Source: Bacteroidota bacterium
GTDB taxonomy: Bacteria; Bacteroidota; Rhodothermia; Rhodothermales; UBA10348
DNA length: 35,224 bases
Assembly (NCBI GenBank): GCA_027622005.1
Contig: JAQBZH010000023.1
Span: 1 to 35,224, forward strand
Direction of reading: 5' to 3'
A program made the translations under genes and the position numbers. Numbering within the stretch: the first letter of the stretch is position 1; each line of letters opens with the position of its first letter. Below, in pieces: positions 832-22,703 of this stretch. The notes under the pieces were generated by a model that was given only the letters and a program-made list of their open reading frames with translations, was not told the origin of the DNA and searched no databases.

Positions 832-1506
832 TTAAGCTTGTGGCAAAATACGGTCGTCAGGATTACCGGTGTCGGTATTTAATTCCGTCGACGGGTCCAA
901 ATTTGAATTACTGGCCGGAGGGCCTTCAGCATGCCCCTTGGTTGGACCGGCTTTCAGCAAAGAAAAAAACCGAAGGAAATAACGGAAAAACGAGTAGGCC
1001 AATAGGAAGACCGTAGCCCAGATACAAAATTCGAGTACAGGATGGTCGGCCTTCAACAATGCGGCCAACGATGTAACGGCCACCCCAGTCACAGCCACTT
1101 TGCCTGCCCACAAACTGAGCACAATGCGGCCGGTTTTGTGTTTTAGAACCGCGCCACCACCCAGAATACATAAATCTCGCGTTGCTAAAAGTAACAAAAA
1201 CCACATCGGCAAAGCACCTTTGAACGCTAGCGCGGCCACAACCATTCCTCCGCCAATTTTATCCGCAAGCGGGTCCAATACCTTTCCCCAATCCGAAACT
1301 GAATGGGACCACCTCGCGACTCTCCCGTCGAAATAGTCCGTGGCGATTGCGAGGAGTACCAACATCATGATCCACCACAGCGGGCCATCAATCATAATCA
1401 ACCAGAAAACGGGTAAAATTATGACCAATCGCGCCATGCTCAGCACATTTGGTACAGTCCAAAAAAGGCCAAGGTCTGACCAGGATTTATTCTGAAGAGG
1501 GGTCAT
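832..1506 (-). CDS. CDP-alcohol phosphatidyltransferase (PgsA-like)
   Basis: Integral membrane enzyme that transfers a phosphatidyl group from CDP-diacylglycerol to an alcohol in phospholipid head-group synthesis. The full family signature is visible: D57, D60-G61, A64-R65, G74, D78 and D82, matching D-x2-DG-x2-AR-x8-G-x3-D-x3-D. Several hydrophobic segments follow, and the last 30 or so residues form a polar, Pro/Asn/Asp-rich cytoplasmic tail. The length (224 residues) fits the family. Glycerol-3-phosphate (PgsA) is the most likely acceptor, but the sequence alone does not settle it. It lies upstream of ftsY and diverges from the glycosyltransferase across a 178-base gap. Its ATG start has no Shine-Dalgarno sequence. 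Confidence 0.9.
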   Translation of the reverse strand: MTPLQNKSWSDLGLFWTVPNVLSMARLVIILPVFWLIMIDGPLWWIMMLVLLAIATDYFDGRVARWSHSVSDWGKVLDPLADKIGGGMVVAALAFKGALPMWFLLLLATRDLCILGGGAVLKHKTGRIVLSLWAGKVAVTGVAVTSLAALLKADHPVLEFCIWATVFLLAYSFFRYFLRFFSLLKAGPTKGHAEGPPASNSNLDPSTELNTDTGNPDDRILPQA

Positions 1507-1561
1507 TCAAGACGATGGGTGAAAGGAAATGCAACCTCATACGCAGTAGTTGGATTCGCGT

Positions 1562-1577
1562 TCACCATTTTTGGTGA
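1562..1577. repeat. Perfect short inverted repeat between divergent genes
   Basis: TCACCA-TTTT-TGGTGA is a perfect 6-base-pair hairpin with a four-base loop, lying in the 178-base gap between the divergent phosphatidyltransferase and glycosyltransferase genes. It has no adjoining T-tract on either strand, so a terminator role is unlikely. It could be an operator half-site pair or chance. Confidence 0.3.
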
Positions 1578-1684
1578 TCTAATCGTGCATATTGAAACAT
1601 GAAATCAACCCAAATTAAGAACTGGGAATTAGATGAAGCCTTCCATTTCCGGAAACAACCTACTAAGCCCGCGTTTCAACCCGC

Positions 1685-2809
1685 ATGGCAACCACGGATA
1701 TAGCCTTTGTCCTCACCGGCGATCTCCACCGGAATATTCGCGCCCTTAAGCAAATCAGGTCGCTTTCTGACGGTGGCTTCTCGGTAAAGGTGTTTCATTT
1801 GGGTGGAAATGCTGCAAAGACAGCCCTGCCAAAGCTTGTTTCGGAACAGGTCGTTAGGGTTCCATCCGGTCGCGGTCCCCTCTACTTCCGCCGCATTCAC
1901 CAAGCCTTTCATTTAGCCCTCCAAGGTGTAAATGCCCGGTTATATCACGCTTCGGATTTATATGTGCTAAAAACCTGCGCAAAGAGCGCAAAGCGTGCCA
2001 ACGCGAAGTACTCATTTGATTCTCGAGAATTGTACGCACACGTTGCCGCCACGGCAGGACGACCTTGGGTCCGATGGTACTGGTCGAGGTTGGAACGAAG
2101 ATTACTACCCGGGTCCGCGGGCTTGTTCACAGTAAGCGATAGCATTGCCGATTTTTTGGCTCGAACTTACGGGGTTTCGCGGCCTATCGTGATCCACAAT
2201 GTGCCCGAGATGACCAACGAAGGGGCATTGACCCACGAAATATCTGGTGTTTTTCCGGGTGATGGCCTACCTGTTTTCGTGCACCTCGGCCAAATGAAAA
2301 TCGACCGGGGGTGCGAGCAATTGGTTGAGGCTATGACTTTGGTTGATGACGCGCATCTGGTATTTTTAGGTTTTGGTCCTATTCAGCCCAAACTCGAAGC
2401 GCTGGTGGCGGCAAAAATGCTGCAATCCCGCGTGCATTTTGTGCCACCCGTCGGGCCACGAGAGGTTCAGGCAGCGCTTCGAGGAGCTACGGTTGGAGTT
2501 ACCATGCTCGAAGACACCTGTTTGAATCATCGATTTGCACTGCCAAACAAACTTTTCGACTATATCCGCGCGGGACTTCCAATACTCGGTTCCAACCTGG
2601 TTGAGGTAGCACAAGTCGTTCAACAGAACACTCTTGGTAGAACCGCCGATCCATCTGACCACCGCGCCATTGCTCCCGTCATGAATGAAATGAAAAGATC
2701 ACCAGATTTACCGATTTGGTCCAAAAACGCTTCCGCCCTGTCTGAAACTTTTTCTTGGGAAAACGCTTCTCAAGCCTTTATGCAGGAAATGAACAGGATT
2801 TTATCTTAA
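1685..2809 (+). CDS. GT4-type glycosyltransferase
   Basis: Predicted soluble or membrane-associated GT-B glycosyltransferase of 374 residues, transferring a sugar from a nucleotide sugar in envelope or extracellular polysaccharide synthesis. The N-terminal half has a Rossmann start (AFVLTGDLHRN) and a mid-protein SFDSRELYAHVA segment typical of GT4 acceptor domains. The C-terminal half has the donor-binding pattern: VFLGFGP near residue 225, then NKLFDYIRAGLPIL around 297-310, equivalent to the GT4 nucleotide-sugar motif region. Substrate and linkage cannot be told from sequence. The thioredoxin-fold gene follows closely, with its start 15 bases after this stop. No Shine-Dalgarno sequence precedes the ATG. 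Confidence 0.85.
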   Translation: MATTDIAFVLTGDLHRNIRALKQIRSLSDGGFSVKVFHLGGNAAKTALPKLVSEQVVRVPSGRGPLYFRRIHQAFHLALQGVNARLYHASDLYVLKTCAKSAKRANAKYSFDSRELYAHVAATAGRPWVRWYWSRLERRLLPGSAGLFTVSDSIADFLARTYGVSRPIVIHNVPEMTNEGALTHEISGVFPGDGLPVFVHLGQMKIDRGCEQLVEAMTLVDDAHLVFLGFGPIQPKLEALVAAKMLQSRVHFVPPVGPREVQAALRGATVGVTMLEDTCLNHRFALPNKLFDYIRAGLPILGSNLVEVAQVVQQNTLGRTADPSDHRAIAPVMNEMKRSPDLPIWSKNASALSETFSWENASQAFMQEMNRILS

Positions 2810-2823
2810 ACCTCCTCCCTTCG

Positions 2824-3357
2824 ATGAACGGCAATCCGAAACCCCTCTTTCGTTCTTTTCTGTGTTTGTCGATGACGCTTTTTGTTTTGGGCGCCAATGT
2901 CTCCACAGGACAAGCCACCACGAATCTCGCGCCACAGATCGAATGGCCTAAGTTCAATGATGCGTTCGCGGCCGCAAAAAAGAGCAAGAAAATCGTTTTA
3001 ATAGACGTCTGGTCGGCCACCTGTGGTTGGTGCAGAAAGCAGCAGACAGAGGTTTACACGCAACCCGATCTGCAAAAATTTCTTTTCGACAAGTTTGAAC
3101 TGGGAAGATTAAACCTCGACGTCACCGACGATACCCTTTCATTTCGAGGCTATACGCTAAGCTCTCAGATGCTAGCGGGCGGATTGGGTGCAACGGGTAC
3201 CCCGACGACGGTGTTTATGGAGGCCGATGGAGCTTACATCACCCGATTACAGGGTTTTCATGCGTACGACGACTTTTACGATGTGCTCCGATTCATTGGG
3301 ACAGAGTCGTTTCGTGAAATGTCCTTCGAGGAATTTATGGCGGCACCTAAAAAATAA
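2824..3357 (+). CDS. Exported thioredoxin-fold protein with CGWC active site
   Basis: Probable periplasmic thiol-disulfide oxidoreductase, 177 residues from ATG 2824. I prefer this start over the in-frame upstream ATG at 2755 because the longer form would overlap the glycosyltransferase gene, while the shorter form begins with a good signal peptide (hydrophobic core about residues 9-24, polar region near 28). The mature part is a thioredoxin fold: the strand KIVLIDVW, then C67-G-W-C70 within SATCGWC, then a GTPTTVF segment carrying the cis-proline. This resembles the thioredoxin-related (SoxW/Thioredoxin_2) proteins common in Bacteroidota. The physiological partner is unknown. Confidence 0.85.
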   Translation: MNGNPKPLFRSFLCLSMTLFVLGANVSTGQATTNLAPQIEWPKFNDAFAAAKKSKKIVLIDVWSATCGWCRKQQTEVYTQPDLQKFLFDKFELGRLNLDVTDDTLSFRGYTLSSQMLAGGLGATGTPTTVFMEADGAYITRLQGFHAYDDFYDVLRFIGTESFREMSFEEFMAAPKK

Positions 3358-3382
3358 CCGCCTGCCCCTTCCAGTAGCCCAA

Positions 3383-3880
3383 TCAGTCTTTTTGCGGCCG
3401 ATCCTGAGCAAACGCCGTCTTTACCTTATAGGAAGATTCCCGGACGGACGGGGTGATTTTTGAAGCGCTTTCAGGTTGGTCTAATTCCCGGACAGACACC
3501 GAAAGCTGGGTCGCGTTTAGATTGGGAATGGGCAGATCTTGAATCGTTGATCCAGATGCTTGAGAATCCCCCCCCTTTTCAACGAGTGGAATGACCGAGT
3601 CAGTGAGATTGCACCGTGATTGAAGCTCATATTTCCACAGCGCGGCGCTCTGAATAATCATTTCCAATTCTTCTCCGCCGATCAGTCCGAAAACAATGAT
3701 ATTCGAAGACCAACGTACTTCTTGGATTTCAGACAGCAAGATCACCCGCTTGTAAAACAAACCCTTCAGTACGATCCGATCGGGCATTAATCTGGCCACA
3801 CCGAAAAATACGCGATGAAATTCTAAATCGAATTTTGACTTTAGAATGACCACGTTTTCAATATTTTGATTCTTCCTCAT
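3383..3880 (-). CDS. Unknown 165-residue protein, possible PH-like N-terminal domain
   Basis: Not recognised. The first 85 residues alternate hydrophobic and charged stretches (FHRVFFGVARLMPDRIVLKG, then a VILLSEIQEVRW segment) in a pattern that could be the beta strands of a PH- or GRAM-like domain. The remaining 80 residues are low-complexity, Ser/Pro/Gln-rich and probably disordered. There is no signal peptide or membrane helix. Its ATG begins immediately after the stop codon of the nitrilase-family gene (stop 3881-3883, start 3878-3880), so translational coupling and a shared function are likely. It converges on the thioredoxin gene with a 25-base gap. Codon use looks like that of its neighbours. 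Confidence 0.7.
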   Translation of the reverse strand: MRKNQNIENVVILKSKFDLEFHRVFFGVARLMPDRIVLKGLFYKRVILLSEIQEVRWSSNIIVFGLIGGEELEMIIQSAALWKYELQSRCNLTDSVIPLVEKGGDSQASGSTIQDLPIPNLNATQLSVSVRELDQPESASKITPSVRESSYKVKTAFAQDRPQKD

Positions 3881-4732
3881 CTACCGCTCGATAACCCCAA
3901 TTTCCCTACTACCAACAACCGTATCTGAATACGTTCCTGGCCGTCTGTGTTTCATGAAAAGTGTTCTGGCGGGTGAATTTTCGACCTGATCGAAATCAAG
4001 GTCAGCATATAAAATAGCATCTACATCGGCGGGAGCCTGGGCCACTATTTGACCCATTGGGTCCGTGACAAAGGACTCCCCGGCAAACGTTAATACTTCT
4101 TCACGACCGACCCGATTGGACAAGGCCATATAATATCCATTCTGAAAAGATCCAGCCTGAAGCTCAGCCTCGAAAACGCCTTTTGGCCATTCCCCGGATG
4201 CTCCCGCTTGTGGTATAACAACGAGCTGAGCATCCTGAAGGGTTAGCGCCCTTAGGTATTCAGGAAAATGACGGTCATAGCAAATACAAACGCCAATGCG
4301 ACCATATGCCGTGTCGTATACCGGAGCACCCGTGTCGCCCTCATCATAATAATCTTGCTCATAAAACGATTCATACTGGGTGATATGCATCATTCGAGTC
4401 GTTCCTACTATCGATCCATCGGCGTCAATAACCGGGGATGAGTCGAACGCTTTTGCGCCGTCTCTTTCGTATAGGTTGAGGACGATAACCACGTTGTGCT
4501 TTGCCGCAAGATCGCAAAAAACATTTGTAGTCGGACCTGGAATGGGCTCGGAATGCTCCATTCTATTGCCCTTAAGCGGCAACTGAGGAAAAAACCGAGT
4601 AAATGCCAACTCGGGGAAAACCAGTATTTGAGCGCCATTCTGGATGGCGATTTTCGCGTTTTCTATACCTTTTTTCAGGTTCGCAGCGTGATCCTTAGAA
4701 GCAGACTGCTGAATTAAAGCGATACGTGGCAT
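3881..4732 (-). CDS. Nitrilase-superfamily C-N hydrolase with Lys-to-Met change
   Basis: Member of the carbon-nitrogen hydrolase (nitrilase/N-carbamoylputrescine amidase-like) superfamily, 283 residues, cytoplasmic. The Glu of the triad is in LVFPELAF (E41) and the nucleophile is in CICYDRHFPE (C151). Further family blocks are the GD after FYEQDYY and the AGESFVTDPMG strand region. Where family members usually read Y-R-K-x-H-I, this protein reads T-R-M-M-H-I (residues 112-117), so the catalytic Lys position appears to be Met114, codon ATG at 4393-4391. All else is intact, so it is either a subfamily with altered chemistry or a non-hydrolytic member. It is directly abutted by the 165-residue unknown gene. 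Substrate unknown. Confidence 0.88.
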   Translation of the reverse strand: MPRIALIQQSASKDHAANLKKGIENAKIAIQNGAQILVFPELAFTRFFPQLPLKGNRMEHSEPIPGPTTNVFCDLAAKHNVVIVLNLYERDGAKAFDSSPVIDADGSIVGTTRMMHITQYESFYEQDYYDEGDTGAPVYDTAYGRIGVCICYDRHFPEYLRALTLQDAQLVVIPQAGASGEWPKGVFEAELQAGSFQNGYYMALSNRVGREEVLTFAGESFVTDPMGQIVAQAPADVDAILYADLDFDQVENSPARTLFMKHRRPGTYSDTVVGSREIGVIER

Positions 4733-4794
4733 TCCGAAGTCCTAATAAATCGAAGTCGTCCTATCGTGTTGTACGCCAACGGTTCCCAATATGA

Positions 4795-5469
4795 CTAATT
4801 TGCGCTTGGTACGTTTGAAGTCGGCCCGAAGGCTCCTGCCGCCAATGTCACCGCGAATAATACGGCAAGCAGAATCCCACCTACTTTAATAGCCCCGCGA
4901 AGTCCCGTATTATTTTTATTTTTTTGAACGGTTTGTTCTTCTTTCACTAGCTGGGCATAAGTCGAGTCAGTGAGTTGATGAACAAATGGGGCTTCCACTT
5001 TTTCGGCCATTTGATGGGTAAGCTGTTCCAACCAGTACAGGCCAATCAGATTGTCCGATGCCTTTGGATTTCCGTTTACCCGTTGAAAAGTCCCCTTCAC
5101 CTGTACAAAAACGGCGTTATTGCTAGCCTGGGTATTAACGGAGACCTTCATTAGCAAATTGGCCAGATCTTTGACTGGCTCGAGACTGTCCGCCAAGGCT
5201 TGCTGAATAGTCTGAAGACTCTGGTAATCCGTTTGGATAAGTCCGAGCCTATCGTTGGCAAGCGTGATGGAGAAGTTGCTCTCGATTAGCTTCGATAATG
5301 CGTGGTCGACAATAGCTTCACGATCTTTCATCGACGTAAAAGCCACTGATTCAACCAGACTTCGAACCGGCGCGGGGTTCGTGGCATAGCGCGCCTGTGA
5401 ACAGCCGGTAAAAACCAAACTGAACGACAGTAGGGAAGCAATCCAGGCCGTTTTTCTCTTACTAACCAC
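4795..5469 (-). CDS. Predicted lipoprotein with C-terminal membrane segment, unknown function
   Basis: 224 residues from a GTG start. The N-terminus is a lipoprotein signal: KRK, a hydrophobic core, then FTGC with Cys23 as the lipidation site. The mature part (about 40-185) is mixed alpha/beta, with a plausible small domain containing repeated S/T-rich strands and a LIGLYWLEQLTHQ helix. Residues about 196-215 are a strongly hydrophobic Ala/Leu/Val segment close to the C-terminus, preceded by basic residues, which looks like a transmembrane helix. I do not recognise the family. It sits between prmC and the nitrilase-family gene on the same strand with gaps of 95 and 62 bases. Confidence 0.7.
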   Translation of the reverse strand: MVSKRKTAWIASLLSFSLVFTGCSQARYATNPAPVRSLVESVAFTSMKDREAIVDHALSKLIESNFSITLANDRLGLIQTDYQSLQTIQQALADSLEPVKDLANLLMKVSVNTQASNNAVFVQVKGTFQRVNGNPKASDNLIGLYWLEQLTHQMAEKVEAPFVHQLTDSTYAQLVKEEQTVQKNKNNTGLRGAIKVGGILLAVLFAVTLAAGAFGPTSNVPSAN

Positions 5470-5564
5470 GTTCTACGATATCTATAAAGGTTGCGTATTA
5501 ATGATCGGCCTACCAAAGGTTCTCTTAAACGAAATAAGAAACCTCGAGAGGCTTAGCGCTGCTA

Positions 5565-6425
5565 TCAATCAACGCTGGCTACCACAAATCGGTCCAGCTT
5601 CGACAGGTCCTTTTGAATAGAGACCTGAAAAAAACCGTGACCTTCAAATATTTGACTCACCTCGAGCCCGTAGTTGGAATGAATTTCGACACAGACCAGT
5701 CCACCTGGAGCGAGTAAACCGGGTGATATTGCTGCTATTCTCCGGTAGAAAATCAAAGGATCCTCCCCGGCAAATAGAGCCAGATGCGGTTCGTACTGAA
5801 CGACTTCGCGCTGAAGAGTTGCCCTTTCTGAAAGGGGAACGTAGGGCGGGTTGGATATGATTAAATCGAAAGGGCCTCCGGAAATCGTGTCCGTAAGAAT
5901 ATTGAGGGCTTCAAAATGGACAGTCGCTCCCAGCCGGACAGCATTTTTCGCAGCCAAAACCAGCGCCTCTTCGGAAATGTCTAACGCTGAAACCTGACTA
6001 TTAGGCCGCTCAAGTGCCAGAGTGACCGCCAAGCACCCCGAACCAGTTCCAATATCGAGGATTCGTGGAGCTGCAGACTTCCCTGTGTTCGAAAGTGCCC
6101 ACTCTACGATTAACTCAGTTTCCGGACGGGGAATCAACACACTAGGGCCGACTTCAAAATCCCGACCATAAAAAGCGCCAACACCTAAAATGTATTGCAG
6201 AGGCTCTCCACAGAGCCGGCGTTCAACCATATCGTGAAACGTGTCGAGCCATCGGGTAGGAATTTCCTCAACTGAACCGATCATCCACTGAATCCGCGTG
6301 GCACCCGTTGCGGATTCCATCATCCATTCCCATTCTCGTTTGCTTACATCGATTCCGGCTTCGATACCCCTACGCATCGAATCTTCCAGGGCTTGAAGTA
6401 AAAGGGGGGTGATTTCGGATGACAC
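5565..6425 (-). CDS. prmC: Peptide chain release factor glutamine methyltransferase PrmC
   Basis: Methylates the Gln of the GGQ motif in release factors 1 and 2, using S-adenosylmethionine. 286 residues, the usual length. An N-terminal helical domain (1-about 95) carries LCGEPLQYILG, a hallmark of the family. The SAM motif DIGTGSG is at 124-130 and the catalytic NPPY motif at 192-195, followed by VPLSE. The start is GTG at 6425. In many genomes prmC sits beside prfA; here no release factor gene is near. It is divergent from the glucan phosphorylase gene across 190 bases. Confidence 0.95.
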   Translation of the reverse strand: MSSEITPLLLQALEDSMRRGIEAGIDVSKREWEWMMESATGATRIQWMIGSVEEIPTRWLDTFHDMVERRLCGEPLQYILGVGAFYGRDFEVGPSVLIPRPETELIVEWALSNTGKSAAPRILDIGTGSGCLAVTLALERPNSQVSALDISEEALVLAAKNAVRLGATVHFEALNILTDTISGGPFDLIISNPPYVPLSERATLQREVVQYEPHLALFAGEDPLIFYRRIAAISPGLLAPGGLVCVEIHSNYGLEVSQIFEGHGFFQVSIQKDLSKLDRFVVASVD

Positions 6426-6615
6426 AGAATGAAAGCGTTAGACGTGGGGCATAATATACCCCATACCTGACGAACCGCGCACAAGCCCTCCGCCGCTGAG
6501 AAAGAGTAGGTTTTAAGCATCATTTCATCGTTGGGCTAGGCCGTCTGGTGTATCTTGCCGGCTCGTAATCCGGAAATACTTAGCGGCCACCGCACTCTTC
6601 AATCCTCACCCATTT

Positions 6616-8673
6616 ATGACCACTCGCGAACAGCTCCACGAAATAAGCCGAAATCTCTGGTGGAGTTGGCATCCTGAAGCCCTTTCCCTTTTTAAGCGCT
6701 TAAATCGCGATGCGTTCAAGGCCTCTGGAAATAATCCCATTGTGGCGTTCAATCTGGCTAAAGCAGATGTCTTGAGCGATGCTCAGGTTCAGGCGGATGT
6801 CGACACCGTGTATCGCCAGTTTCGCGATTACATGGAATCACCCGGTGGGAAGGAAAACGCTCCCAAAACGGCCTACTTCTGTATGGAATATGGTCTCCAC
6901 GAGAGTTTGCCTCTGTATTCCGGTGGCCTGGGCATATTAGCCGGGGATCACACCAAGGCCGCCAGCGATGTTGGGCTACCGCTGACGGCTGTTGGATTGT
7001 TTTTGAGAGATGGCTATTTCAGGCAATATTTCGACCAAGCAGGCGGTCAGCACGACGATTATCCGGCCATCGACTCAACCCAACACGCCGTAGAATTAGT
7101 TACTGACGCAAATGGCAAACAGATAACCGTAACGGTTCACGTCGGAACCCGAGAAGTCTTTCTTCGGGCATGGAAAGTGTGCGTGGGAAAAACGGATCTG
7201 TATTTATTGGATACCGATTTTGCAGCCAATGCATTCGATATTCGATTTCTGACCCGCCGACTCTATCAGGGCGATCGATCAACTCGGATCCAGCAGGAAG
7301 TCATCCTGGGTATTGGTGGAATTCGGCTTTTACGCGCCGTTGGAAAGTCCTTTGACGTTCACCACATGAACGAGGGCCATTGCGCATTTTTGACGTTAGA
7401 ATTGTTACGAGAACGCCTGCTTCAAGGCGAATCGAGGCATGACGCGGAGCAGAACGTACGTCAAATGTGTGTTTTTACCACGCATACCCCTGTCATTGCC
7501 GGCCATGATCGCTTTGATGCAGGACTGTTTAATTTCTCTATGCAATCCATGCGGGAGTCGCTTCAGATGTCGGAGTTTGACCTGTTGTCCTTTGGCAGAG
7601 TCAACCCCGGCGACCACCATGAAGAGTTCACCATGACCGTATTGGGTTTAAAGCTTTCTCGAAAAGCCAACGGGGTTTCCAAGCTTCATGGGCAGGTGGC
7701 TCGCCACCAGTGGAATCATCTGTATCCTCATCTTGCTCCCGACGATGTGCCCATTTCGCACATCACCAACGGTGTTCATCTTCCCACCTGGGCCGCACCG
7801 GCCTCGAGATCCTTCCTAGATGTATATCTCGGGTCATGGGAAAAAGACCGGGAGCGACAAGAAACGTGGGATCGTTTGGCCAATGTGCCAGACAAAGCAA
7901 TTTGGGAGTACCGGACGCGCCTGCGGGCAGGGTTGATTTCGTTTGTCAACGATCACATTCGAACCCAGACTATGCCACAGGATGCAAGGCTAGATCGCGA
8001 AGCACTTACGATTGGCTTTGCGCGTCGTTTTGCCACCTACAAACGGGCTCCGTTGCTGTTTAGCGACCTCGAACGCATTACGCGTCTGTTTAAAAACACC
8101 GATCATCCCATCCAGATAATTTATGCCGGGAAGGCGCATCCGCAGGATGATGGTGGCAAGGCGTTCATCCAACAGATTTTTGAGCTATCGCATCGACCCG
8201 AATTCAATGGCCGACTGATCTTTCTTGAAAACTATAATATGGAAGTGGGCCGCAAGCTCATTTCAGGGTGTGATGTTTGGTTAAACAATCCCCGGCGTCC
8301 TATGGAAGCCAGTGGAACGAGCGGCCAAAAAGTGGCCATTCACGGAGGACTCAATCTTTCGATCCCAGATGGTTGGTGGCCAGAAGGGTTCGATGGGACC
8401 AATGGGTGGTCGATTGGAGATAATGCCTCTCACGAATACGAGGACCCCTCAGTTCAAGACCCTAGGGATGCCATGTTGCTTTATGAAAAGCTGGAAAACG
8501 AAGTCATTCCCTTGTTTTACAAAAGAAATGGATCGGGTAGACCCGAAAAGTGGATCCAGATGGTGCGTTCAGCCATGACCGGCCTTACGTATTCCTTCAG
8601 CGCACATCGTATGATCAAGGACTACATCGCCCAGATATATACCAAAGACGCACAGGCAAAGGCCTCACTTTAA
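6616..8673 (+). CDS. glgP: Alpha-glucan (glycogen/maltodextrin) phosphorylase
   Basis: GT35 enzyme that phosphorolyses alpha-1,4-glucans to glucose-1-phosphate with pyridoxal phosphate. 685 residues, belonging to the short alpha-glucan phosphorylase group that lacks most of the animal/E. coli N-terminal extension. The N-terminus has the ISRNLWWSWHPEA block characteristic of that group, then YFCMEYGL and YSGGLGILAGDH (substrate cleft). The PLP-lysine region is EASGTSGQKVAIHGG, with Lys572 the Schiff-base residue. Its stop overlaps the stop of the convergent phenylalanine hydroxylase gene by 4 bases. No other glycogen gene is in the window, so whether it acts on storage glycogen or imported maltodextrin is open. 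No Shine-Dalgarno sequence. Confidence 0.95.
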   Translation: MTTREQLHEISRNLWWSWHPEALSLFKRLNRDAFKASGNNPIVAFNLAKADVLSDAQVQADVDTVYRQFRDYMESPGGKENAPKTAYFCMEYGLHESLPLYSGGLGILAGDHTKAASDVGLPLTAVGLFLRDGYFRQYFDQAGGQHDDYPAIDSTQHAVELVTDANGKQITVTVHVGTREVFLRAWKVCVGKTDLYLLDTDFAANAFDIRFLTRRLYQGDRSTRIQQEVILGIGGIRLLRAVGKSFDVHHMNEGHCAFLTLELLRERLLQGESRHDAEQNVRQMCVFTTHTPVIAGHDRFDAGLFNFSMQSMRESLQMSEFDLLSFGRVNPGDHHEEFTMTVLGLKLSRKANGVSKLHGQVARHQWNHLYPHLAPDDVPISHITNGVHLPTWAAPASRSFLDVYLGSWEKDRERQETWDRLANVPDKAIWEYRTRLRAGLISFVNDHIRTQTMPQDARLDREALTIGFARRFATYKRAPLLFSDLERITRLFKNTDHPIQIIYAGKAHPQDDGGKAFIQQIFELSHRPEFNGRLIFLENYNMEVGRKLISGCDVWLNNPRRPMEASGTSGQKVAIHGGLNLSIPDGWWPEGFDGTNGWSIGDNASHEYEDPSVQDPRDAMLLYEKLENEVIPLFYKRNGSGRPEKWIQMVRSAMTGLTYSFSAHRMIKDYIAQIYTKDAQAKASL

Positions 8674-9494
8674 GCCAGCAATCCTTCCTTTTCGGCCCAA
8701 GCACGGAATTCCCTGACCAATTGGTCGAAAGTATCGAGGGCGAAAAGCCGTGGCTGCAAGTGCCAGACTTCGTAGTCTTGTTCGATGACTTTCTCTAGCG
8801 AAAATGGGATCACTTCCACTTCGTCAGACAACGCGTGAACCACTTCGTTTTTAGAGGACATTGTGCCTGCCCCGAACACCCGCAGTCCATCAACTTGATG
8901 AATCAAACCAAACTCGATCGTAAACCAGTGAAGACGCTCCAAACAGGTGCGTTGGTTGCCGGTCGCATTGAGGGCTGACTTTCCAAAAAGGTGGTAAAAA
9001 TCGGCTACGGCTGGCTCCGTGAGCATGGGCATGTGCCCAAAAATGTCGTGGAAGCAGTCCGGTGCCGGTGTGTAGTCGAGTTCATTCTTTTCCCGGACAT
9101 AGTCCGTAGACGGGAAAATGCGCTGGGCAATCAATTCAAAAAATTCGCGCTCGTGCAATAGACCTGGAATTCGAGCGATTTTCCAACCAGTCGCCGTCTC
9201 CAGCGCCACGCTCAAATCGGCCAATCCAGGAATACCTTTATCGTTCAACCCAAGAATGCGAACACCGTCTAGAAAAGCCTGCCCGGCCCGGCCCTGCAGT
9301 AAGCTCTTCTGGCGGTTCAATAAAAATCGCCAATTATCGTTGTGTTCATCTGAATAAACGGGCTTGACGATTTCGCTTCCAATCGGTGGTACCCCGTCCA
9401 AATATTGCGGGGTGCAGCGGGGGTCATGGCCTTCAATAGCCGCCTTTTCATAAGCGGAAAGGGGCTCCTTCGATGCGGAGTGAGTGTCTTTCAT
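8670..9494 (-). CDS. phhA: Phenylalanine 4-monooxygenase
   Basis: Non-haem iron, pterin-dependent enzyme converting phenylalanine to tyrosine. Numbered from ATG 9494 (274 residues), the iron ligands are H149 and H154 in CFHDIFGH and E194 in FTIEFGL, all present. GHDPRCTPQYL near the N-terminus matches single-domain bacterial enzymes with no ACT regulatory domain. A TTG at 9530 would add 12 poorly conserved residues; I chose the ATG because bacterial homologues start close to this point. The gene lies 90 bases downstream of the NhaC-family antiporter on the same strand and converges on glgP. A pterin recycling gene (phhB) is not in the window. Confidence 0.94.
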   Translation of the reverse strand: MKDTHSASKEPLSAYEKAAIEGHDPRCTPQYLDGVPPIGSEIVKPVYSDEHNDNWRFLLNRQKSLLQGRAGQAFLDGVRILGLNDKGIPGLADLSVALETATGWKIARIPGLLHEREFFELIAQRIFPSTDYVREKNELDYTPAPDCFHDIFGHMPMLTEPAVADFYHLFGKSALNATGNQRTCLERLHWFTIEFGLIHQVDGLRVFGAGTMSSKNEVVHALSDEVEVIPFSLEKVIEQDYEVWHLQPRLFALDTFDQLVREFRAWAEKEGLLA

Positions 9495-9584
9495 AGATTT
9501 CAACTTAACACCGTTATCTGATTGTTGCAAAGAGCCTTGCCACCAGAAACTGGATCCCTCAAATTTTTCATTAACCGGACGCGA

Positions 9585-11015
9585 CTACATCAACAACCCA
9601 GCAATTAAGAACGCTACCGTAGCTGCGCCGGCCAACGTCAGTGCGTACGGAAGCTGTGTATTGATGTGATCCACATGATCACTGGCTGCCGACATACTCG
9701 CAATCAACGAGGTGTCCGAAAGGGGCGAAGCGTGGTCGCCAAAAACCCCACCAGACAGCACGGCCCCTAGCATGAGTGGCATGGATAGCCCGAGTCCTTC
9801 AGCCAGCGGTAGGGCGATGGGAATTAATATTGCAAATGCCGTCCAAGAAGACCCTAACGTGAAGGAAACGAAGCAGCCTACCAGAAAAATGATGGCCGGA
9901 AGCCACCAAGTAGGCCATCCGGTCCCGACGACTTCGATAATGTAGGGCCCCATTTCAAGTTCGCGGGAAACCTGCCCCAGCGCGAACGCCAGAGCCACCA
10001 AAACTACCATCCCTACCAATCCACCCGAGCCTTTCAAGACCAGCGCCATCGAATCGCGAGGATTCATCAACGCCTTACCATCTTTTCCTGAGCCGGGTAC
10101 CGCGTACATAATCATCGCTATGCCGACAGCGGCAATTACGGCCCAAAGAACCGAAGTAGACCCACTCCCTTGCATAATTGCCCCATTTCCAGTCACATAG
10201 AGGCCAAAAAAGATCGTAGATACCATCACACCAATCGGAATGAGCAAATGTCGGGCTTTCAAGGAAGAATCTGCGACCGGCCCCAGTTCAACAATTTCTG
10301 CGGCCACGAGGGGTACAGCTCCCGGACGCAAGAGCGCTCCCGTCGTTTCCGCCCGGATTTCTGCCGTTTTCATGCTGCCGTAGCGCCAACCCGTTAAAGC
10401 CAATACCAGCGCAAACAGGATCGCAAACAAAGAATAAAAATTGAGTAACAAAGAGGTGGCCAAAAGATTTACAGCTCCGTCGGTAACGCCTTGTACTGCA
10501 AGCAGTCCCAGCACCATCGCTCCCCACCCATTGAGCGGTATACTCATGCAGACCGGTGCACTGGTCGAATCGCAATAAAAGGCCAGCTTTTCGCGCGGAA
10601 TTTTAAGGCGGTCAAACAAGGGCCGATTGATGGCGCCGACAATTAAACAAGTAATAGAGGACTCCACAAAAATAACCATTCCGACCGACCAGGCTAACAA
10701 TTCAGCACCTCGTCGAGTCTGCCCCCAACCCTTTTTCATTGTCCACAAAATAAACCCCTGAACACCACCCGACGCCTGTACTAAGGCAATTAACCCACCA
10801 ACTAGGAGGCTGAAAAGTAAAATGCGGGTGTTGCCAGGGTCCTCGAAAACGGCTACCAGCTGATCAATTAATTCCCTGAGTCCAAGAATCGGATTTCCTC
10901 CGACAATTATGGTCGTTCCAAGCCAAAGTCCCGCGAGCAACGAGAGGTACACCTCTTTGGTCCATAGCGCCAATCCAATAGCCAAAACGGGGGGCAGAAG
11001 TACGATCCAATCCAT
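9585..11015 (-). CDS. NhaC-family Na+/H+ (or organic-solute/cation) antiporter
   Basis: Inner-membrane secondary transporter of 476 residues with about 11-12 hydrophobic segments. The N-terminus (WIVLLPPVLAIGLAL, then KEVYLSLLAGLWLG) and the C-terminal block GGVFGDHASPLSDTSLIAS are typical of the NhaC family; the GDHxSPxSDT motif lies in the conserved transport core. Members exchange Na+ for H+, and some relatives move malate/lactate or other solutes, so the substrate is not certain. It precedes phenylalanine hydroxylase on the same strand, which may be simple adjacency. The ATG start has no Shine-Dalgarno sequence. It diverges from the PP2C gene across 175 bases. Confidence 0.9.
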   Translation of the reverse strand: MDWIVLLPPVLAIGLALWTKEVYLSLLAGLWLGTTIIVGGNPILGLRELIDQLVAVFEDPGNTRILLFSLLVGGLIALVQASGGVQGFILWTMKKGWGQTRRGAELLAWSVGMVIFVESSITCLIVGAINRPLFDRLKIPREKLAFYCDSTSAPVCMSIPLNGWGAMVLGLLAVQGVTDGAVNLLATSLLLNFYSLFAILFALVLALTGWRYGSMKTAEIRAETTGALLRPGAVPLVAAEIVELGPVADSSLKARHLLIPIGVMVSTIFFGLYVTGNGAIMQGSGSTSVLWAVIAAVGIAMIMYAVPGSGKDGKALMNPRDSMALVLKGSGGLVGMVVLVALAFALGQVSRELEMGPYIIEVVGTGWPTWWLPAIIFLVGCFVSFTLGSSWTAFAILIPIALPLAEGLGLSMPLMLGAVLSGGVFGDHASPLSDTSLIASMSAASDHVDHINTQLPYALTLAGAATVAFLIAGLLM

Positions 11016-11190
11016 GATATTTCGAAGTTGAATTCAAGTCGACGTGCAATCTACGAGAATTGTAGGTGATCCGTGTATTCAATTTAATTCGCACCAAAAA
11101 CTCCGGGAACGCGTACGACCTTTTGCGTATTCTCTATACGTACTACGATAAGCCCACTTAGCTTCCTGGTCCAACGAGACTATCATCAGA

Positions 11191-12300
11191 ATGAGCTCAA
11201 CAAAAGATCCTATTAGGGATTCGGTCCAAAACGTATCCCGTTTCACCCGATCCGTTTTTGATAATATTAAAGGTAGCGAGCTACCTATGGAGCTCCGTCG
11301 GGACTTAAAGGAATCGTATCATTTTTACTTAGACGAAGCCGAAAAAGCTCATTTGTCCGAATTAGGAAAGGTTAAGAGAGCATTTTATGCAGCCTATTAC
11401 TTGTCGAAAAACCTCATATTAAAGCTGACTCCGGTTCGAAGACTCATCGTGCTGGTAGGCGTCGTGGTGGCGTACGGCGGTATGCCCGACGATACCGACG
11501 AGGTCCTTTTCGGCTTTCTTCTTGTCCTTTTTGTTCTAGGTCTTGAATTAAAAGACAAGTTGACCGCTCACGACGAATTGGAAGCCGGTCGGGCTGTGCA
11601 GCTGGCCATCATGCCAGAAACAACACCCGTCTTACAAGGATGGGAGATTTGGATGCAATCGACTCCAGCGAAGGAAGTTGGAGGTGATTTGATTGATCAC
11701 ATGTCCCTCGAAGAAAACACCATTGCGTTGACTTTGGGCGATGTCGCCGGGAAAGGCCTTCCAGCCGCACTGATGGCTGCCAAAATTCAAGCTACGCTAA
11801 GGGCCATCGCTCCTGATTACCGCGATTTGACCGCCCGAGCCGAAAAACTCAATAATATTGTCATTCGCGACGGCTTGCCGGACAAATTTGCCTCGATGAT
11901 CCACTGCAGATTGACCACCGCTTCCGGCGAAGTGTGTCTGGTTAATGCTGGTCATCACCCACCAATTCTTGTTAAAGATGGTAAAATTGTAGAATTGGGG
12001 AAGGGCGGACCGGCCATTGGCTTGAGCAAAAGCTCGACGTACCCTACCGAGACCTGTTCCATGGAAGATGGAGACCTACTCGTACTTTACTCAGACGGTA
12101 TTACGGAGGCGCGCAACGAAGTTGGTCAGTTTTATTCGGAGGACCGATTCAAAGACCTACTCCATTACACTCACGGGATGGATGCGGTATCATTAGGCAG
12201 CCGGATTTTACGATCGGTTGAAGATTTTGTCCGGACAGCTCGGCCCAGCGACGATCTTTCGCTGATTATAATTCGGCGCCAATCAGGTCTACACAGTTAG
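11191..12300 (+). CDS. Membrane-associated PP2C-family (SpoIIE/RsbU-type) serine phosphatase
   Basis: 369 residues. The N-terminal 80 residues are helical and charged. Two hydrophobic segments follow (about 84-98 and 105-120), suggesting a membrane hairpin. Residues about 130-365 form a SpoIIE-type PP2C phosphatase domain: an amphipathic switch-like helix with VQLAIMPE, KEVGGDLID (metal Asp166), GDVAGKGLPAALMAA (Asp184), a LVNAGHHPP block, LYSDGITEA, and the terminal RPSDDLSLIII metal-binding DD. Such phosphatases usually dephosphorylate anti-sigma-factor antagonists (STAS proteins). No STAS or RsbW-like gene is in the window, so its target is elsewhere. No extracytoplasmic sensor domain is visible; the signal may enter through the membrane hairpin or N-terminal helices. 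Confidence 0.9.
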   Translation: MSSTKDPIRDSVQNVSRFTRSVFDNIKGSELPMELRRDLKESYHFYLDEAEKAHLSELGKVKRAFYAAYYLSKNLILKLTPVRRLIVLVGVVVAYGGMPDDTDEVLFGFLLVLFVLGLELKDKLTAHDELEAGRAVQLAIMPETTPVLQGWEIWMQSTPAKEVGGDLIDHMSLEENTIALTLGDVAGKGLPAALMAAKIQATLRAIAPDYRDLTARAEKLNNIVIRDGLPDKFASMIHCRLTTASGEVCLVNAGHHPPILVKDGKIVELGKGGPAIGLSKSSTYPTETCSMEDGDLLVLYSDGITEARNEVGQFYSEDRFKDLLHYTHGMDAVSLGSRILRSVEDFVRTARPSDDLSLIIIRRQSGLHS

Positions 12301-19067: not shown

Positions 19068-22000
19068 GTGAGCAATCTCGGCTTCAACACGGGCTACATC
19101 GAAGAACTTTATCGCCAGTATCTGGAAAACCCGGATAGTGTGAGCGAAAGTTGGAAAGAGTTTTTTCTAGACTATCGGCCTGACCAAGGATTTGTAGCGG
19201 GTACGACCACCCGGGCGGCGGCAGAAACCCCATCGCCTAAAACTACCGCGGCGCCTGTCAAAGAAAGTGCAGTGGCCCCGGAAAGGATGCCTGTTTGGGC
19301 CGAAGAGGTACCCATTCGCGGCGCGGGTGCTGCAATTGTTGAGAATATGGTGGCCAGTTTGGGTGTTCCTACGGCCACATCGGTTCGCACGGTACCGGTC
19401 AAGCTTATGGCCGAAAACAGGACGCTAATCAATGATTTTCAGCGGTTGGTAGGAGGTAATAAGGTATCCTTTACCCACATCATTGCGTGGGCCATGGTTA
19501 AAGCGTTAAAAATATATCCTTCGCTAAACACGACGTACCGCTACTCTGAGGATGGTCACCTTCACGTCGTCCCTCATGCCGTCAACCTAGGACTTGCAAT
19601 CGATGTTGAACGACGCGGAAAAAGGACGCTTTTGGTTCCGAATATTAAGTCCGCCGATCAATTGAACTTTGCCCAAATATTGGGCACCTATAACGACCTT
19701 GTACGAAGGGCGCGGGACGGGAAGCTCGAAGTAGCTGATTTTCAGCAAACGACTGCGACCCTGACCAATCCAGGGATGATTGGGACGAATTTGAGCGTTC
19801 CACGGTTAATGGATGGCCAGGGCGTCATAGTTGGGGTGGGAAGCATTGGTTACCCGACCGAATACTATGCCTTTCCTCCTGAGATGATCAGTAAAACGGG
19901 CATCTCCCAGATTATGACCTTGACGTCAACGTACGATCACAGGGTCATTCAAGGCGCTGAAAGCGGCGGGTTTTTAGCTCACATTGAAGAATTGGTCAGG
20001 GGCGAACACGGGTTTTACGATGAAATTTTCAGAGACCTGAAAATCCCGTATCAACCTTGGACTTTAGCGACCGACTCCACGCCCCAGGTTGGTGCGCTGG
20101 GCGCGATCGCCGAATTCGATTTTGTTCAAAAAGAAGCGAGCGTTTTGCAGCTCATTCGGTCTTTCCGGGTTCGCGGGCACTTGCAGGCGGACGTCAATCC
20201 GCTTGGGTACGATTGGGAGTATCATCCCGAACTAGACCCCGCGTCATACGGTTTGACCATTTGGGATTTGGATCGTGAATTTGTTACCGGTGGCTTGGGT
20301 GGAAAAAACCTGTTGCCGCTGCGAACCATTCTAGACATTCTGCGGCGGGCCTACACGCGGCAGATCGGTGTTGAGTTTATGCACATCTCATCACCCGAAG
20401 AAAAGGAATGGATATCCTCGCGGATTGAACCGAATGGAAAGGAATTCACCATCACCGAGGACGAAAAACGGCGCATGTTGGAAAAATTGAACGCTGCTGA
20501 AGCCTTCGAGACTTTCCTACACACCAAATACATTGGCCATAAGCGGTTTTCATTGGAGGGTTCAGAGACCATAATTCCGATGCTCGACCGAATCCTTTCT
20601 GATGCAGCAGAGAAAGGGGTGCACGAAGTAGTTATGGGGATGGCACACAGAGGCCGACTCAACCTCTTGGCCAATATCATGAACAAGCCGTACGAACACA
20701 TTTTTTCGGAGTTCGAGGGCAATATTGATCCCAAAACAACCCAGGGATCGGGTGATGTTAAATATCACCTAGGCGCAAGTAGTACCCACTCGGCTCCGGA
20801 TGGACGGACGGTTGGAATTTCTCTCTCGTCAAACCCTAGCCATTTGGAAGCCGTTAGTCCTGTCGTCGAAGGAATGGTGCGGGCCAAACAGGAAGCTAGA
20901 CGGCATAGCCTGGATAATCCGGACAACGACTACATGGATTCGGTCATTCCGATCTTGATTCACGGAGATGCGGCTTTTGCCGGACAAGGCGTCGTCGCCG
21001 AGACCCTTCATCTCAGTCAACTCCCCGGGTACAGAACAGGCGGAACGATTCATATCGTCATCAACAATCAAATCGGATTCACGACGGGTCGGCTCGATGC
21101 GCGCAGTTCGACGTATGCAACGGATAGCGCTCGGATGATTCAAGCTCCAATTTTTCACGTGAATGGCGATGATCCGGAGGCTTGTATGCAGGTTGCTCGC
21201 CTAGCTCTCGAATACCGACAAGCGTTCAACAAGGACGTGGTAATTGATATGCTGAGCTACCGCGTCCGAGGCCATAACGAAGGCGATGAGCCTACTTACA
21301 CTCAGCCGCTTCTATATCATAAAATTGAGGACAAACGATCTCCGCGCAAGATGTACACGGAATTGTTGCTGCGTCGTGGTCACATGACGCCCGAACATGC
21401 TGAGCATATGCTCGACGACTTTCGGAACCGTCTTCAGGATGCATTTGATCGAACCAAAGAGTTGTCGGAGAAAGCAAAGCCGTCCCCTGATCAATTATTA
21501 AAGCCAAAGGTCCTGCGTTCGCTTCCCAAAGTGGCCACCGCTGCATCAGAGGAGCACCTTGCACAGGTCGTACATGCTCTGAACAAACTGCCAGAATCGT
21601 TTGCCATCCACAAAAAGCTCGAGCGCCAGTTTACGCGGCGGGATAAGCTTTATTTTGAGGAGAAGCGCATCGACTGGGGCTTTGCCGAAGCATTGGCTTT
21701 TGGTACGATTTTGCTGGAAAAAATCAAAGTCCGGGTCAGTGGGCAGGATTCCCGAAGAGGAACGTTTAGTCATCGGCATGCCGTGTTGTATGACCAGGAG
21801 AATGGGAACGAATACATCCCCCTCAACCATATTGAGGCCGGTCAAGAGCATTTGTCGATTTACGACTCGTTGTTGTCCGAATACGCCGTTTGCGGTTTTG
21901 AGTACGGGTATTCGGTTTCCCAACCCGATGCGCTGGTCATTTGGGAGGCCCAGTTTGGTGATTTTGCCAACGGGGCGCAGATCATCTTTGACCAGTTTCT

Positions 22001-22703
22001 CTCTGCAGCCGAAGAAAAGTGGGGACAGAAGAGCAGCCTGGTTCTGTTACTTCCACACGGTTTTGAAGGACAGGGTCCGGAACACTCTTCGGCGAGATTG
22101 GAGCGTTTTCTCCAATTGTGTGCGGAAAACAATATGATTGTTTGCTCCTTCTCTACACCCGCCCAGCTGTTTCACGGTTTGCGCAGACAAGCATCTCCTG
22201 AAATTCGGAAACCTCTCGTAGTAATGGCCCCAAAGAGTCTGCTTCGACATCCCTCGGTCGTTTCTACTCCAGAAGAATTATTTGGAGGAGTGTTTCAGGA
22301 AGTAATTCCGTCGGCCGACGCGCCCACAGCGAAACGTTTGGTCTTTTGTAGTGGCAAGCTTTACTACGACCTAATGCAGGAAATAGAGCAAAATGGACAG
22401 GCGGGGACCGTTGCAGTCTGCCGGTTAGAGCAATTTTACCCGTTTCCTTCCGAACAAGTTGTCGCAGAACTCGATCGCTTTGCGGGGATCACGGACGTGG
22501 TATGGGCCCAGGAGGAGCCCGCCAACATGGGTGCGTGGCAATTCGTTCGGGACTTTTTTGACGCGGCGTTTGCAGCCTCTAAAACAAAGGCCTCAAAGAT
22601 TCGCTATATCGGTCGAGAGGCTTCGGCTAGCACGTCTACGGGTAGCGCTTACGTTCATCAGGCAGAGCAGTCGGCCATTCTGAAGGAACTCGTTTCGCTT
22701 TAG
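19068..22703 (+). CDS. kgd: Multifunctional 2-oxoglutarate dehydrogenase/decarboxylase, E2-E1 fusion (Kgd/OdhA type)
   Basis: 1211 residues from GTG 19068. The first 45 residues (GFNTGYIEELYRQYLENP onward) are the E1o N-terminal segment. After an Ala/Pro/Thr linker (about 46-85) comes a succinyltransferase E2 catalytic domain (about 95-335) with catalytic His291 in TYDHRVIQG, then a complete thiamine-diphosphate E1 domain (about 350-1211). E1 landmarks are GMAHRGRLN, HGDAAFAGQG with INNQIGFTT (ThDP motif), and RRGTFSHRHAV. No lipoyl or subunit-binding domain exists, as in mycobacterial Kgd and corynebacterial OdhA, where the lipoyl group comes from another acyltransferase. It should make succinyl-CoA in the TCA cycle with E3 and a lipoyl partner encoded elsewhere. 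It is monocistronic by layout. Confidence 0.94.
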   Translation: MSNLGFNTGYIEELYRQYLENPDSVSESWKEFFLDYRPDQGFVAGTTTRAAAETPSPKTTAAPVKESAVAPERMPVWAEEVPIRGAGAAIVENMVASLGVPTATSVRTVPVKLMAENRTLINDFQRLVGGNKVSFTHIIAWAMVKALKIYPSLNTTYRYSEDGHLHVVPHAVNLGLAIDVERRGKRTLLVPNIKSADQLNFAQILGTYNDLVRRARDGKLEVADFQQTTATLTNPGMIGTNLSVPRLMDGQGVIVGVGSIGYPTEYYAFPPEMISKTGISQIMTLTSTYDHRVIQGAESGGFLAHIEELVRGEHGFYDEIFRDLKIPYQPWTLATDSTPQVGALGAIAEFDFVQKEASVLQLIRSFRVRGHLQADVNPLGYDWEYHPELDPASYGLTIWDLDREFVTGGLGGKNLLPLRTILDILRRAYTRQIGVEFMHISSPEEKEWISSRIEPNGKEFTITEDEKRRMLEKLNAAEAFETFLHTKYIGHKRFSLEGSETIIPMLDRILSDAAEKGVHEVVMGMAHRGRLNLLANIMNKPYEHIFSEFEGNIDPKTTQGSGDVKYHLGASSTHSAPDGRTVGISLSSNPSHLEAVSPVVEGMVRAKQEARRHSLDNPDNDYMDSVIPILIHGDAAFAGQGVVAETLHLSQLPGYRTGGTIHIVINNQIGFTTGRLDARSSTYATDSARMIQAPIFHVNGDDPEACMQVARLALEYRQAFNKDVVIDMLSYRVRGHNEGDEPTYTQPLLYHKIEDKRSPRKMYTELLLRRGHMTPEHAEHMLDDFRNRLQDAFDRTKELSEKAKPSPDQLLKPKVLRSLPKVATAASEEHLAQVVHALNKLPESFAIHKKLERQFTRRDKLYFEEKRIDWGFAEALAFGTILLEKIKVRVSGQDSRRGTFSHRHAVLYDQENGNEYIPLNHIEAGQEHLSIYDSLLSEYAVCGFEYGYSVSQPDALVIWEAQFGDFANGAQIIFDQFLSAAEEKWGQKSSLVLLLPHGFEGQGPEHSSARLERFLQLCAENNMIVCSFSTPAQLFHGLRRQASPEIRKPLVVMAPKSLLRHPSVVSTPEELFGGVFQEVIPSADAPTAKRLVFCSGKLYYDLMQEIEQNGQAGTVAVCRLEQFYPFPSEQVVAELDRFAGITDVVWAQEEPANMGAWQFVRDFFDAAFAASKTKASKIRYIGREASASTSTGSAYVHQAEQSAILKELVSL

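Follow-up and report, generated by a model that had tools for sequence, protein, structure and literature searches.

The replacement of the catalytic lysine of the nitrilase triad by methionine is a real and old trait that arose once and is conserved in a clade of proteins spread over the phylum Bacteroidota. The representative studied here is encoded in the window, by which we mean the whole analyzed stretch of 35,224 nucleotides from a Bacteroidota bacterium of the order Rhodothermales. The nitrilase superfamily is recognized by its textbook signature, the Glu-Lys-Cys triad, which also serves to annotate its members. Our best explanation, which we propose tentatively and with rather less than full conviction, is that the members of this clade are likely active although their Lys was replaced by Met, and that the missing positive charge comes most plausibly from the dimer mate in the form of Arg or Lys256. 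The activity, the role of residue 256 and the substrate are inferences.

Identity of the window gene and its catalytic residues

The gene (positions 3881-4732, minus strand) encodes a nitrilase-fold (CN_hydrolase) protein of 283 amino acids. The profile PF00795 matches residues 3-252 with an E-value of 9.9e-50 and 169.7 bits (cut-off 23.2), and this significant match over the domain places the protein within the superfamily by descent. An AlphaFold2 model calculated from a 20-row alignment (mean pLDDT 90.0, pTM 0.88) predicts the nitrilase fold; its best match among solved structures is MtCPA from Medicago (PDB 5h8i), with a Foldseek E-value of 5.9e-30 and a VIA Z-score of 37.4 at an rmsd of 2.8 Å over 275 residues.

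Two members of the triad, Glu41 and Cys151, can be read in the translated frame, in agreement with an earlier note on this DNA. Glu41, the general base (4610-4612, minus strand), lies in the segment FPELAF, corresponds to MtCPA Glu48 and is present in all 65 clade rows with a residue at this position. Cys151, the nucleophile (4280-4282, minus strand), lies in CICYDRHFPEY, corresponds to MtCPA Cys158 and is found in 66 of 67 clade rows, the remaining row, L096, having Ser. The segment TTRMMHITQYESFYEQ holds the second conserved glutamate, Glu125 (4358-4360, minus strand; MtCPA Glu132; 66 of 67 clade rows), together with residue 114 in the column of the catalytic Lys. At 4391-4393 the plus strand reads CAT, which gives ATG on the coding strand and therefore Met114 within the motif T-R-M-M-H-I; the catalytic Lys is missing. 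The earlier note had likewise read T-R-M-M-H-I in place of the usual Y-R-K-x-H-I, and the segment matches Y-R-K-x-H-I gap-free in the five PDB alignments examined and in the Lys-type homologues.

Conservation and origin of Met114

The comparison with the nearest homologues that the earlier note had proposed gave a clear result: among aligned distinct proteins, column 114 contains Met in all 67 members of the clade versus Lys in all 57 other homologues. The clade rows were picked by bit score to the query, independently of column 114, and are 52-100% identical, apart from one decayed member at 41%. The 57 other homologues consist of 53 proteins from the phylum (46 + 7 rows, a part of all non-clade matches) and four from plasmids. 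Two more distant non-clade rows were omitted from the Lys count, namely L040, which carries Lys at this column, and the NAD synthetase L038, for which the automatic alignment shows Met with Lys adjacent (DKM) due to an alignment shift. The clade motif around Met114 is [RK]-M-[MVIC]-H-[IV], and the impression recorded earlier that related sequences share an R-M-x-H variant was right. A single base distinguishes ATG from AAG, and an assembly error had been named as a possible cause of the unusual codon. Since all 67 distinct clade proteins, which come from many independent genomes, have Met, a sequencing or assembly error at 4391-4393 is refuted, and we give it practically no weight.

The clade spans 12 families of the phylum, nine of them within the order (f1, f2, f7, f8, f9, f11, f12, f13 and f15), one at the level of the class (f18) and two at that of the phylum (f26 and f44). 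A close homologue with an E-value of 5.6e-60 or better was present in 31 of 41 genomes, comprising the own genome and 40 relatives. Using a single-sequence search, we detected a clade member in 45 of 394 drawn genomes of the phylum (E 2.2e-68 or better); a profile search of the 394 genomes again found 45, with one match each at E 1e-75 or better. A gap separates these E-values from those of the next matches (about 1e-50). Plasmid records yielded 1143 matches, all below 60% identity (best 37.5%), and the four inspected all have Lys. On viral contigs two weak relatives were found (25-26% identical). At one locus (L069 / L121, G087:C4) the clade gene is split into two open pieces by an in-frame TAA, either as a pseudogene or through an assembly fault.

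In a tree of 82 proteins the 64 Met rows are split from the 18 Lys rows by a branch of length 1.92 with a support of 100/100, and the Met/Lys trait requires one change on this tree. As the root was placed at the midpoint for drawing, we infer the direction of the change, from Lys to Met, from the wider family. Comparison of the query with L041, its nearest relative among the related loci, gave a pN of 0.074 and a pS of 0.770: synonymous sites approach saturation while the protein sequence is preserved, which shows strong purifying selection on the window gene.

Clade-specific positions and the substrate pocket

Met114 belongs to a set of 23 clade-specific positions, defined as residues present in at least 93% of the clade and in at most 10% outside it (67 clade rows without L096 and including one duplicate, compared with 17 others). 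These are positions 44, 47, 49, 86, 97, 99, 100, 112, 114, 118, 120, 129, 175, 177, 181, 182, 183, 185, 189, 197, 204, 255 and 258. According to the MtCPA structure report (PMC4812014), the nucleophile of that enzyme is flanked by Glu48 and Glu132, the oxyanion hole is formed by Nz of Lys121 and the backbone N of Trp159, and Glu187 binds the substrate amine. The pocket is described there as bordered by Tyr54, Pro125, Tyr130, Trp159, Trp162, Ala183 and Ile184 together with Cys276 and Trp277 of the dimer mate. The first seven of these residues align to F47, T118, F123, Y152, H155, A176 and G177 of the window protein, of which 47, 118 and 177 are clade-specific.

Several of the clade-specific residues replace a different pattern in the Lys-type homologues. 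Thr112 (4397-4399, minus strand; 64 of 67 clade rows) is Tyr or Phe in these proteins, and Thr118 (4379-4381, minus strand; 65 of 67) is Pro, as is the pocket residue Pro125 of MtCPA. The motif P-Q-A-G, including Gln175-Ala176-Gly177 (4202-4210, minus strand; Q and G in 66 of 66 rows), stands against P-[ST]-A-[IT]. The pair Glu181-Trp182 (4187-4192, minus strand; 66 of 66 each) lies beside the position aligned with MtCPA Glu187; in the alignment Glu187 faces G180, with the fixed Glu181 next to it. Arg154-His155 (4268-4273, minus strand) is fixed in the 67 clade rows without L096 and is common to the CYDRH Lys-type homologues. The 22 clade-specific positions other than Met114, several of which map to the pocket, suggest that Met arose together with a remodeled pocket.

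Candidates for a substitute positive charge

The earlier note had considered that a different Lys might take the site. In the clade alignment no column contains more than 55% Lys (the highest value, 55%, is reached at residue 3), and a fixed substitute Lys is therefore rejected. Columns 113, 116, 154, 155, 161, 207, 263 and 264 carry basic residues that are invariant or almost so in the clade, but they do not qualify as compensation because all or most non-clade rows have basic residues there too.

A different pattern was found at Arg256-Thr257 (3962-3967, minus strand), which aligns to Cys276-Trp277 of the MtCPA dimer mate. Residue 256 is Arg in 45 and Lys in 18 clade rows, that is in 63 of the 65 with a residue there, compared with 12% basic residues among 17 others; 36 AguB-like rows mostly have His (30). 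At residue 257, Trp occupies the position in 56 of 57 Lys-type proteins, compared with Arg (20), Lys (20), Gln (13) or Thr (11) in the clade. The mapping of 256-257 to MtCPA 276-277 assumes a chain offset of 3, which was derived from the tag and is supported by the Trp at 257 in the Lys-type proteins. At residue 51, too, basic side chains are more frequent in the clade (70% versus 12%). Because MtCPA 276-277 belong to the dimer mate, a charge provided in trans would most plausibly come from residue 256, a clade-specific basic site that could act from the dimer mate.

Gene neighborhood

The upstream neighbor of the gene is prmC (5565-6425, minus strand; TIGR03534, 261 bits, above the cut-off), in an order that is conserved in Rhodothermales. 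In 16 of 19 related loci and in the window, prmC lies upstream of the clade gene; in six of those loci and in the window a single small gene separates the two. In the window this is the gene of a lipoprotein-like protein (4795-5469, minus strand), and directly downstream of the nitrilase gene a protein of 165 amino acids is encoded (3383-3880, minus strand); both lack a Pfam or NCBIfam match and both occur in six of the 19 loci and in the window. Two of the three loci without prmC upstream (L046 and L047) begin near a contig end, and the third (L051) lacks prmC. On the other side, genes for a thioredoxin-like protein (2755-3357, plus strand) and a group 1 glycosyltransferase (1685-2809, plus strand) run convergently toward the nitrilase gene, an arrangement shared by 15 of the 19 loci and the window.

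At the level of class and phylum (L067-L081 and L117-L121) the flanks contain, among others, genes for dCTP deaminase, enoyl-CoA hydratase and GMC oxidoreductase. In none of the flanks inspected beyond the order was prmC found beside the clade gene. As the flanks differ beyond the order, no partner gene shared across the clade was found in those read for order, class and phylum. We therefore read the prmC adjacency as shared gene order and not as a sign of function, and a conserved operon as a functional clue was discarded, the prmC order not being seen in flanks beyond the order. Scans for promoters and terminators gave no more sites than shuffled sequences, and no tandem repeats were detected. 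Elsewhere in the window, an ORF of 1211 amino acids (19068-22703, plus strand) combines the E1 domains of 2-oxoglutarate dehydrogenase with a 2-oxoacid dehydrogenase acyltransferase (E2) domain. This layout is known from actinobacterial Kgd.

Proposed mechanism and alternative explanations

In the mechanism that we tentatively prefer, Cys151 would attack a C-N substrate, proton transfer would fall to Glu41 and Glu125, and one half of the oxyanion hole would persist through the backbone NH of Tyr152. Another source would now supply the positive charge formerly provided by Lys, and the best candidate would be Arg/Lys256, with 257, from the dimer mate. The strict Met/Lys division with its fully supported single change, the purifying selection, the clade-specific positions, three of which align with MtCPA pocket residues, and the altered residues 256 and 257 at dimer-mate positions are all consistent with this proposal. 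So is the behavior of Glu41, Glu125 and Cys151, which are fixed except in one decayed row. This row, L096 (G328:C1:202859-204289), comes from the same order. Its frame is intact and it retains Met114 and Glu41, but it shows the changes Cys151 to Ser, Glu125 to Ala, Phe123 to Ala, Arg154 to Phe, Gly177 to Arg and Glu181 to Arg. As it is the only clade row without Cys151, the joint loss suggests, from a single case, that these residues serve catalysis in the other clade members, and L096 is a candidate natural pseudoenzyme. Lys256 is retained in L096, which speaks against the proposal, since residue 256 did not decay with Cys151. Two further objections come from the MtCPA report (PMC4812014): the role of Lys as oxyanion-hole donor suggests that its loss is costly, and the dimer-mate residues line the middle and the entrance of the pocket and not its bottom. 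Arg256 may therefore be too far away and may only bind the other end of the substrate.

It is also conceivable, though improbable, that the substrate itself carries the missing charge as an amidinium, guanidinium or ammonium group and assists its own turnover. Guanidine-modifying enzymes use Cys and acids without a nitrilase-type Lys, a precedent in favor of substrate assistance. The site, which keeps Glu41 and Glu125 without the neutralizing Lys, is more negative, and Glu181 adds an invariant acid close to where MtCPA has Glu187, its substrate-amine binder (PMC4812014); Arg or Lys256 would, however, offset this negative charge, and outside Rhodothermales no gene neighbor in the flanks read suggests such a substrate. 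We consider it similarly unlikely that hydrolysis was lost and the protein serves binding or regulation. The triad Lys is absent from every clade member read, and L096 with its intact frame has also dispensed with Cys151, Glu125 and Glu181; but a non-catalytic role explains poorly why Cys, both Glu and the pocket stay unchanged in 66 of 67 rows drawn from 12 families, and L096 sits on one of the few long end branches (1.64), as if the constraint had been lost only there. Still less weight is given to the idea that a neutral amide or carbamoyl group is hydrolyzed in the ordinary way, with Arg154/His155 or Thr112, Thr118 and Gln175 replacing Lys. The three latter residues are clade-specific, the clade is invariant at Arg154 and His155 outside L096, and Arg154 was lost with Cys151 in L096. 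Yet Arg154 and His155 are also fixed in 21 CYDRH homologues that keep Lys, and for this reason they are not regarded as compensation.

The earlier note had left the choice between a subfamily in which another residue takes over and a protein that has lost hydrolysis. The single origin of Met and the fixed Glu41, Glu125 and Cys151 make the former the more probable of the two. As the clade has kept the rest of the catalytic center, it probably performs an altered chemistry. A bolder interpretation, which we regard as unlikely, would make it a Lys-free class of the nitrilase fold in which a basic residue of the dimer mate, acting in trans, or else a cationic substrate complements the active site, with a C-N chemistry new for the fold.

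A conserved clade without Lys and under purifying selection represents a natural test of the role of this residue, and it points to a substrate that would be overlooked by present annotation. Arg/Lys256 from the dimer mate is a named candidate that is testable by simple mutants. In the open-licence literature, searched by title and start of abstract and with subscription journals outside its scope, no description of a nitrilase clade lacking Lys was found. An enzyme without catalytic Lys in PMC12421990 was rejected as a precedent, as it belongs to the amidase-signature family.

Comparison with known enzymes and with paralogues of the same genome

The genome of the window contains five CN_hydrolase matches: the window gene, two Lys-type homologues, a copy on contig C68 that is NAD-synthetase-like by sequence, and a copy of 505 amino acids on C44, presumably Lnt. 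The Lys-type copy on C18 (L037) matches AguB best with 277.6 bits (cut-off 410.25, not reached) and adjoins a gene matching agmatine deiminase models with 211.5 to 222 bits, below the cut-offs (483 for the 222-bit model). The Lys-type copy on C47 (L036/L108) is clustered with genes for an aminotransferase, a dihydropyrimidinase and a methylmalonate-semialdehyde dehydrogenase, of which the latter two score above their cut-offs (448.7 and 477.7, respectively). The window protein scores 175 bits with the AguB model TIGR03381, below the cut-off of 410.25. No agmatine deiminase was detected by Pfam or NCBIfam among the ten window ORFs scanned (835-12297), and neighbors from the reductive pyrimidine pathway, as expected for a beta-ureidopropionase, are absent from the Pfam results of the window. 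Given the low AguB score and the neighbors of the two Lys-type copies, the window protein probably acts on another substrate than these paralogues.

Among characterized enzymes, the closest solved fold is that of MtCPA, an N-carbamoylputrescine amidohydrolase (AguB/CPA) whose Glu48, Glu132 and Cys158 match Glu41, Glu125 and Cys151. The two proteins are 28-30% identical; in contrast to the window protein with Met114, MtCPA has Lys121, and its pocket residues Tyr54, Pro125 and Ile184 as well as Cys276 and Trp277 of the dimer mate are all changed in the window protein. The N-carbamoyl-D-amino-acid hydrolases (1erz, 6lei and relatives) share the fold and are the second-best PDB sequence matches with about 27% identity, but show Y-R-K-x-H with Lys in the alignments examined. 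The CYDRH-type homologues, which are beta-ureidopropionase-like and include L036/L108 of the same genome, share with the window protein the C-Y-D-R-H motif at the nucleophile and both Glu residues, whereas all 21 of them keep the Lys that is Met in the window clade.
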